A DNA stretch of 64,000 nt. It comes from Actinomycetes bacterium (GTDB lineage Bacteria > Actinomycetota > Acidimicrobiia > Acidimicrobiales > JAMCPL01). Shown one piece after another: positions 7,682-9,761 of the stretch. The stretch lies in NCBI GenBank assembly GCA_021846515.1, contig JAJZWU010000001.1, forward strand, positions 62,001-126,000, in the 5' to 3' direction. Under the pieces are notes generated by a model, which was given only the letters and a program-made list of their open reading frames with translations, did not search any database and was not told where the DNA came from. How positions within the stretch are numbered: position 1 is the stretch's first letter; the number at the start of each line of letters is the position of its first letter. The position numbers and the translations under genes are program-made.

Positions 7682-8320
7682 CTATTTCTTGGATGCCTGA
7701 TAAAACGGATTTGTACCGGCATCATGGTTGGTTACATCCGCTACTCGCCTAATCTCTGGTACTGCATTTTTAATAGCCACCTCTATCCCCTGAGATAGAG
7801 TTACAGAGGCAAGACCGCATCCCTGACAGCCTCCCATCATCCGCACGTAAGCCACTCCATCACCGACTGCCACCAACTCTGCATAGCCCCCATGACTGGC
7901 TATAGCGCGATTGATATCTTCATTTATGACTTCCAGCACCCTCTGGGCGACAGGGGAGGAAAAATCTCCCTCTACTACACCTTCCGGTAAGCCGTTATCA
8001 CTCGCTGGAGTATTTGGGTTGACCATAACAAGGCCACCCTCTCCGTCGTCGGACCACTCCAACCTGGATCCCCTGATAAGCTCAATACTTGGTGTGGGAA
8101 TTACAACAGGAACATCGTCCAAACTGTTACCACTGATCAGCGCATCCGATGAATGGGCATCCTCGACACTCTGAAAATACAAATCGTAATCGTATGCTTT
8201 ACCGCGGCTTCCCACAATCTCTATCCAAAGAGCCAAGCTGTCTGCATCGCTCTCTGCGTTCCTGGCATCCCTAAGCATTTTCATCGCCTCATCGGTTATT
8301 GTTAATAATTGATCTACCAT
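7682..8320 (-). CDS. NfuA/NifU-like iron-sulfur scaffold protein
   Basis: The C-terminal ~75 residues form a NifU C-terminal domain with the cluster-binding CxxC in GGCQGCGLA, preceded by GGYAELVAVGDGVAYVRM. The N-terminal ~95 residues resemble an A-type (HesB-like) domain but lack its cysteines, the NfuA arrangement of degenerate A-type plus NifU domain. It probably delivers [4Fe-4S] clusters to apo-proteins. The start is set at 8320 (MVDQL), because a -10-like TATACT lies 7 nt upstream; a longer reading frame to 8359 would run into the divergent gene. 212 residues. Confidence 0.85.
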   Translation of the reverse strand: MVDQLLTITDEAMKMLRDARNAESDADSLALWIEIVGSRGKAYDYDLYFQSVEDAHSSDALISGNSLDDVPVVIPTPSIELIRGSRLEWSDDGEGGLVMVNPNTPASDNGLPEGVVEGDFSSPVAQRVLEVINEDINRAIASHGGYAELVAVGDGVAYVRMMGGCQGCGLASVTLSQGIEVAIKNAVPEIRRVADVTNHDAGTNPFYQASKK

Positions 8321-8339
8321 ATAAAATAGTATACAGTCA
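8321..8339. promoter_or_regulatory. Overlapping divergent leaderless promoters
   Basis: Only 19 bp separate two divergent start codons. On the minus strand TATACT (8328-8333) lies 7 nt before the ATG at 8320; on the plus strand TAGTAT (8327-8332) lies 7 nt before the ATG at 8340. The two hexamers overlap by five bases, so only one could be occupied at a time. Confidence 0.55.
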
Positions 8340-9761
8340 ATGGCAAGGATATTAATCATCGTCCCATCAAATACCTATAGGGCGACATCATTCATAAACG
8401 CTGCCTCCAGAATGGAGGTGGAGGTAATAGTTGCATGCGACTCTCTACTGCCCATAGAAAAGCTACCCTCTCCAGGCACTTTCTCGGTGGGCGCTCTATC
8501 ATCCAGCGTATTCTCGTCGGGCACATCCTCTCTCGATGCGACATATCCAGATACCTCCCCGGCCAGTACATTCTCATCAAGTACCTTGCAAATATCACTG
8601 GATAACCTGGATGAATCTACTGAGCAGATCCTCAAACTGGACAACATACTACCGCTTGATGCCATCATCGCAATCGACGATAAGGGGGTAGCACTGGCGG
8701 CGGCTGCAACAACAGCGCTCGGCCTAAAGGGTAATAAGCTGGAAGCAGCTACCCGCACTCTACACAAGGATCTCTTGAGAAAGGCGCTGAGCGAGACTGA
8801 AGTACCGCAGCCAGCCTACAGCATCCTCGGCAATAATGCATCACCTCAAGACGTCACCAATGCCATAGACGCTATTGGGCTACCCTGTGTGGTAAAAGCG
8901 ACCAGCCTATCGGCCAGCCAGGGTGTTATACGAGCAAATTCATACCCAGAAGTTGACCTGGCTATAGAACGGATAAGGAAAATCCAGGCGACAGAAGGAC
9001 GCTCCTACGACCCCATATTAATAGAGCGCTACATAGATGGTGACGAAATAGCCGTAGAGGGCCTGTTAACAGACGGAAAACTAACCATATTGGCCATATT
9101 CGACAAACCTATACCACTGGTAGGACCATTTTTCGAAGAAAGCATCTACGTCACTCCTTCTGTCCACGACAGTTCCCTGCTGCAGTCTGCAATAGATGTT
9201 ACCCACCGATCAGTTGCAGCCCTGCAACTAAGAGAAGGCCCTATTCACGCAGAAGTGCGTTTTGAAAATGGTAGGGCATACCTTATAGAAGTCGCGTCAC
9301 GGACTATAGGCGGCCAATGCTCCAATGTACTCCAGTTCGACAATGGAAGATCGCTGGAAGAGGTGGTCTTAGCTTCATCTCTGGGGATGGAGCCCCATGC
9401 CTACGATGCCGGGAAAGAGGATACTCTACCGAATGCAAGTCTTGGCGCAATTCGCACAGTTCGTGCAGTGTGTGCAGGGCAAAAGCATTTACAAATCATT
9501 CCGGGATACTCTGGAGTATGTATGATATCAGCCCAAGAAAAGGGAGTAATAAAAGCCATAGAGGGAGTAGACATGGCGAGACAGGTAGAATCTGTCACCG
9601 GCGTAAATATCACTACATTCCCGGGTGCGGAGGTAGCGCCGGTTCCAGATGGTAGCCGATACATAGGGTTTGTCTTTGCCAGAGACAGCAGTCGCACCAA
9701 ACTTATCGACTCACTGCGTAAGGCTGCTTCTATGATCTATACGGTAATTGAGCAAACCTGA
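8340..9761 (+). CDS. ATP-grasp ligase (carboxylate-amine ligase family)
   Basis: A 473-residue ATP-grasp protein with a Rossmann-like N-terminal region (MARILIIVPS), a Ser/Thr-rich spacer at about residues 45-85, a central ATP-grasp fold (PCVVKATSLSASQGV for ATP, ERYIDGDEIAVEGL, metal-binding HAEVRFENGRAYLIEVASR) and a C-terminal domain as in L-amino-acid ligases and related carboxylate-amine ligases. It should join a carboxylate to an amine via an acyl phosphate, but the substrates cannot be read from sequence. It diverges from the NfuA-like gene and is monocistronic. Confidence 0.85.
   Translation: MARILIIVPSNTYRATSFINAASRMEVEVIVACDSLLPIEKLPSPGTFSVGALSSSVFSSGTSSLDATYPDTSPASTFSSSTLQISLDNLDESTEQILKLDNILPLDAIIAIDDKGVALAAAATTALGLKGNKLEAATRTLHKDLLRKALSETEVPQPAYSILGNNASPQDVTNAIDAIGLPCVVKATSLSASQGVIRANSYPEVDLAIERIRKIQATEGRSYDPILIERYIDGDEIAVEGLLTDGKLTILAIFDKPIPLVGPFFEESIYVTPSVHDSSLLQSAIDVTHRSVAALQLREGPIHAEVRFENGRAYLIEVASRTIGGQCSNVLQFDNGRSLEEVVLASSLGMEPHAYDAGKEDTLPNASLGAIRTVRAVCAGQKHLQIIPGYSGVCMISAQEKGVIKAIEGVDMARQVESVTGVNITTFPGAEVAPVPDGSRYIGFVFARDSSRTKLIDSLRKAASMIYTVIEQT

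Follow-up and report, generated by a model that had tools for sequence, protein, structure and literature searches.

A probable, largely leaderless bidirectional promoter between divergent NfuA-like and ATP-grasp ligase genes in an actinobacterial genome

Divergent genes for an NfuA-like protein and an ATP-grasp ligase are separated by a 19-bp spacer in the 64,000-nucleotide stretch of DNA analysed here (the window), and this spacer is probably a conserved, largely leaderless bidirectional promoter that joins two arms of one module. A single pseudo-symmetric -10 element, TAGTATA, would be read by the housekeeping sigma factor either way round. Polymerase bound one way would start at or within one base of the ATP-grasp ATG, and polymerase bound the opposite way at or within one base of the NfuA-like ATG, so that both messages would be leaderless and seven base pairs would set the transcription and translation starts of both genes. 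Each initiation event would sterically exclude the other; at ordinary firing rates, both directions would run side by side, such that expression of the iron-sulfur carrier would be coordinated with that of the ligase arm. The sequence geometry, its conservation and the leaderless signature are established.

The genes and the element between them

The NfuA-like gene (7682 to 8320, minus strand) encodes a protein of 212 amino acids with a degenerate A-type N-terminal region and a NifU domain that carries a GGCQGC motif. The NifU domain is recognized by Pfam PF01106 with an E-value of 1.7e-19 and 70.1 bits (cutoff 27). The best NCBIfam match is to NfuA itself, TIGR03341, at 78.4 bits; given that this is below the curated equivalog cutoff of 269.35, the protein is named NfuA-like only. 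A longer, mechanically defined open reading frame begins at 8359, and this start was rejected in favor of 8320 because the relative L005 has a stop codon just 5' of the aligned start. The ATP-grasp gene (8340 to 9761, plus strand) encodes 473 amino acids, which match the Pfam ligase family ATP-grasp_4 (E-value 1.4e-27, 96.7 bits, cutoff 27) and the L-amino-acid-ligase C-terminal domain 2, LAL_C2 (E-value 5.8e-14, 52.6 bits, cutoff 29.4). In the window, hisI is downstream of the ligase.

The spacer, ATAAAATAGTATACAGTCA, occupies 8321 to 8339. By inspection of the sequence, the start codon of the NfuA-like gene is the CAT at 8318 to 8320, read on the minus strand, and the ATP-grasp ATG begins at 8340 on the plus strand. 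Seven nucleotides 5' of the ATP-grasp ATG is the candidate -10 element TAGTAT (8327 to 8332, plus strand), and seven nucleotides 5' of the NfuA-like ATG is the candidate -10 element TATACT (8328 to 8333, minus strand). The two opposed hexamers have the five base pairs from 8328 to 8332 in common and together make up the pseudo-symmetric 7-mer TAGTATA (8327 to 8333), of the form xANNNTA, in which the -11A and -7T of each direction pair reciprocally at 8328 and 8332. An earlier note on this DNA had described the divergent starts 19 bp apart, a -10-like hexamer 7 nt from each start, and a five-base overlap on opposite strands, all of which were borne out. A weak -35-like TTAATA for the NfuA direction (8350 to 8355, minus strand) is 16 bp from TATACT and within the ATP-grasp reading frame; its consensus match of 9/12 is near chance overall. 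No good -35 element was seen by eye for the plus-strand hexamer, and a consensus promoter scan of 4 kb gave no excess, with 8 promoters compared to 6.0 (sd 2.8) in shuffled sequence.

Taken singly, each half of this promoter is unremarkable, since TANNNT at 6 to 7 nt is the ordinary leaderless-gene signature of the host genome, an assembly of 2.27 Mb in 77 contigs. A survey of 262 kb (the window plus ten other stretches) covered 167 genes called with a simple longest-ORF rule. In 26 of the 167, TANNNT is 6 nt from the first start codon, and in 12 it is 7 nt away (38/167 together), compared to one to nine genes, or about four per offset, elsewhere. TA-led, leaderless genes of Actinobacteria carry TANNNT about 12 bp upstream of the start, according to the excerpted text of PMC3160421. 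Both genes here match the signature of this class, for which TANNNT is expected about 10 to 12 bp before the start codon, with the first T 13 nt 5' of each ATG. They resemble the TA-led genes of that excerpt in both directions, but differ in that two such genes use overlapping halves of one element.

It is the sharing that exceeds chance, given its placement between two starts and its conservation. A -10 element at 5 to 8 nt from the start on both sides occurs in one of the 32 divergent pairs in the 262 kb, which is the NfuA-like/ATP-grasp pair. The bare pattern CATN6TANNNTAN6ATG was also counted across the 2.27-Mb genome, and was found at five sites compared to two for the reversed control. 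That count was set aside as uninformative: none of the other four sites, judged by reading the ORFs, separates a head-to-head gene pair, and the bare pattern alone therefore proves little. On the sequence evidence, the sharing of a -10 element between both genes is not due to chance.

Bacterial bidirectional promoters with symmetric -10 elements were reportedly described by Warman, Grainger and colleagues (Nat Microbiol 2021). In the portion of PMC10268837 available, the -7T and -11A of both directions pair reciprocally at a start-site spacing of 18 bp; in that of PMC12825309, 18 bp is the commonest spacing and steric limits bar simultaneous polymerase binding. As far as these partial texts go, the spacer resembles the known promoters in its overlapping, opposed -10 elements, in the reciprocal -11A/-7T pairing and in predicted starts about 18 bp apart. 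The first bases of the start codons, 8320 and 8340, are 20 bp apart on opposite strands, within the 7 to 25 bp that defines the class for transcription starts. By analogy, and from the overlap, polymerase would bind one way at a time here. The earlier note had proposed such one-way use of the site, and it is upheld as a published property of bidirectional promoters in the available part of PMC12825309. Unlike the promoters in those excerpts, the spacer has a start codon at each predicted start site, so that it would be leaderless both ways, and it recurs with a single gene pair in many lineages. Searches on leaderless and bidirectional promoters, on NfuA with ATP-grasp and on leaderless Acidimicrobi found no account of this pair among the matches listed.

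Conservation among relatives

Three congeners have the gene pair (L002, L003 and L004), and each retains the 19-bp spacer; no ATP-grasp match was found in a fourth congener, G003, an assembly that is 67% complete. The NfuA-direction hexamer reads TATACT, TATACT, TATAAT and TATAAT in L001 to L004, and the plus-strand hexamer reads TAGTAT, AAGTAT, CATTAT and CATTAT. The second A and sixth T of the latter are thus kept in the congeners, and the first T changes to A or C, so that the exact TANNNT form is lost. The genus of the window would be leaderless on both sides. L005, from another genus of the same family, has a 17-bp spacer with a gap of 6 on both sides. The 19-bp spacing, whose conservation the earlier note proposed to check, is therefore exact within the genus and does not extend beyond it, where the gap remains near 6 nt toward the ATP-grasp gene and varies toward NfuA.

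For wider comparison, the closest 80 of 573 relatives from a genome scan, which are not a random sample, were combined with earlier loci. The resulting set comprises 91 loci, free of redundancy, in which the ATP-grasp start could be used. Five duplicate loci were left out, and outside the set are L018-L021 and L023-L030 (no usable N-terminal pattern, or repeats) and L097 and L107 (N-terminus unmatched). Divergent loci, defined as those with a divergent NfuA-like gene within 400 bp of the ATP-grasp start by tblastn, number 57, and the others number 34. Most of the relatives are metagenome bins whose labels are unreliable (Bifidobacterium breve is the label of one), and the loci are not independent.

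The 7-mer xANNNTA is found 5 to 8 nt 5' of the ATP-grasp start in 49 of the 57 divergent loci, compared to 2 of the 34 non-divergent loci, with start codons assigned mechanically. L058 and L073 belong to the motif-bearing group because an upstream start codon directly 3' of the motif was adopted; the start of L016 was left unchanged and the locus counted among the misses. Among the 49, the gap to the ATP-grasp start is 6 in 40 and 7 in seven, with one locus each at 5 and 8. Other four-offset windows upstream have the motif in 0 to 6 of the 57, and it is at the same gap in 6 of 173 other genes of the same loci. Thinning to one representative per cluster leaves the motif in 19 of 25 at 60% identity and in 8 of 12 at 50%. 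The site is also generally more symmetric than an ordinary -10 element: the pseudo-palindrome xATNATA occurs in 37 of the 49 motif loci (37/57 divergent) compared to 0 of 173 other genes, and T3, A5 and A7 are combined in only 1 of 57 leaderless-like promoters of the host genome. The TAGTATA of the window is one of the 12 of 49 without the full xATNATA form.

Eight of the 57 divergent loci lack the shared 7-mer as defined (L010, L013, L016, L041, L048, L076, L106 and L112). In the comparison set of L013, L016 and L041, divergent genes have longer spacers with, by eye, apparently two separate -10 elements. These three resemble ordinary separate divergent promoters, in which two genes likewise leave a common spacer; the window differs from that arrangement in that its spacer is only 19 bp and its -10 elements overlap. 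In L037 (around 2246) and L038 (around 2995), no NfuA-like gene was detected beside the ligase, and a divergent gene resembling hisI by eye (phosphoribosyl-AMP cyclohydrolase) is present instead. L037 keeps CATCATA before the ligase, and L038 has CATCATG.

On a ligase tree with 91 rows, the rows with the shared motif are strongly clustered, requiring 7 changes compared to a shuffled mean of 30.4; deep forks in this tree are weakly supported. Five motif rows labelled Chloroflexota (L066, L074, L093, L099 and L110) group among Actinomycetota, apart from other Chloroflexota, and have the most symmetric form, TATGATA or TATCATA, which is good both ways. Such a placement would be expected if the module had been transferred together with its promoter, or if the bins are mislabelled.

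The neighborhood of the ligase also recurs. A CUAEP-type radical-SAM gene is downstream of the ligase in 36 of the 57 divergent loci; one such protein, from a truncated copy, scores 470.8 bits compared to the NF040546 cutoff of 500. Among the 34 non-divergent loci, the NfuA-like and radical-SAM genes are upstream of the ligase on the same strand in eight and downstream of it on the other strand in five, and the co-directional arrangement is found in other phyla. In the host genome, the radical-SAM gene (L127) is on another contig (G000:C4:31789-32895), unlinked to the ligase, unlike in most relatives. The earlier note had written of a ligase of unknown product; its gene is not wholly without context, as it is usually beside a radical-SAM gene.

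Direction of reading and alternative explanations

The two directions may differ in strength. By construction, all 49 motif loci have the three key bases (T, A and T) in the NfuA-direction hexamer. The first base of the plus-strand hexamer is T in 11 and C in 33, and the absence of T from 38 of the 49, congeners included, suggests that the plus direction may be weak. The A2 and T6 of the plus-strand hexamer are no independent proof that it is used, because both follow from a good NfuA-direction hexamer. The main argument for use of the plus direction is instead the fixed gap to the ATP-grasp start. A possible NfuA start, taken as the nearest in-frame start after the hexamer, is at a gap of 5 to 8 in 15 of the 49, and most others are further off, often behind a Shine-Dalgarno-like run. 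These patterns are read as a true promoter both ways, with a better hexamer toward NfuA, that would be leaderless toward the ligase throughout and toward NfuA in some loci.

The same imbalance could mean that the hexamer serves the NfuA-like gene only, with the ATP-grasp gene expressed from an upstream site such as TTGTTA-17-TAAAAT (8299 to 8327). The better NfuA-direction hexamer (TATACT or TATAAT in the genus, TATSAT in most relatives) and the lost first T on the plus strand agree with such one-way use, and TTGTTA-17-TAAAAT scores 9/12 in the consensus scan. However, TAAAAT is lost in L002-L004, and the 7-mer is too close to the ATP-grasp start for a normally spaced Shine-Dalgarno sequence to fit in between. 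One-way use also leaves unexplained why the distance to the ATP-grasp start is 6 in 40 of 49 loci when the distance to NfuA is widely variable, and it is unlikely. Still less credible is that the 7-mer is mainly an operator at which a repressor, or some other regulator, controls the module. Although the site is near-symmetric, strongly conserved and flanked by conserved C and GG (CCATSATAGG in many relatives), G-rich bases directly 3' of a -10 element are also expected of a discriminator. Moreover, the distance to the start codon is that of a leaderless -10 element, the TANNNT match is present, and 7 bp is short for such a site, making an operator very improbable. Further observations count against a shared promoter itself: L037 has CATCATA before its ATP-grasp gene without an NfuA-like neighbor, and eight of 57 divergent loci are without the 7-mer.

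The earlier note had proposed that competition for the -10 element makes a mutually exclusive switch, giving either the NfuA-like protein or the ligase and not both. The five-bp overlap would make simultaneous occupancy impossible, and activating an E. coli bidirectional promoter one way can lead to repression the opposite way, according to the accessible part of PMC12825309. In that same part, however, none of the five E. coli promoters tested had enough basal activity for the two directions to compete, and one arm is repressed only when the opposite arm is strongly activated, so that exclusion at each initiation event falls short of a switch. Neither a binding site nor a gene for a regulator was identified here, and the same genes are co-directional neighbors in eight of 34 non-divergent loci. 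The switch was therefore not borne out, given both the low basal firing in the E. coli excerpt and a gene context that points to coordination, and we consider it quite unlikely.

Rather than exclusion, the context of the shared promoter points to joint use, in that the NfuA-like, ATP-grasp and radical-SAM genes recur as neighbors in either arrangement. Proteins of the NfuA type provide or repair iron-sulfur clusters, among them, in E. coli, the cluster of the radical-SAM enzyme LipA, and joint expression of the two arms is thus more sensible than exclusion. The recurrence of the arrangement in many distant relatives suggests that it may keep the genes running together, not switching. From sequence, then, we infer transcription in both directions, the start positions and the coordination of the two arms.

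Significance of the shared element

The same gene pair retains the shared element even where its proteins have diverged widely, and the element usually exceeds the ordinary promoters of the same loci in symmetry, suggesting selection for bidirectionality itself and not a by-product of -10 symmetry. In its broadest form, which we put forward tentatively as a possibility, the proposal is of an ancient bidirectional promoter that has persisted in much of the Acidimicrobiia and in related lineages of actinobacteria, and that has moved with its module into Chloroflexota-labelled genomes. Its 7-bp near-palindrome would fix the transcription and translation starts of both genes and might keep expression of the ligase/radical-SAM arm in a fixed proportion to that of the iron-sulfur carrier. 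The relatives offer a natural series, with a symmetric element in L066, an asymmetric one in L008 and separate promoters in L013, that permits a direct test of the benefit of bidirectionality.
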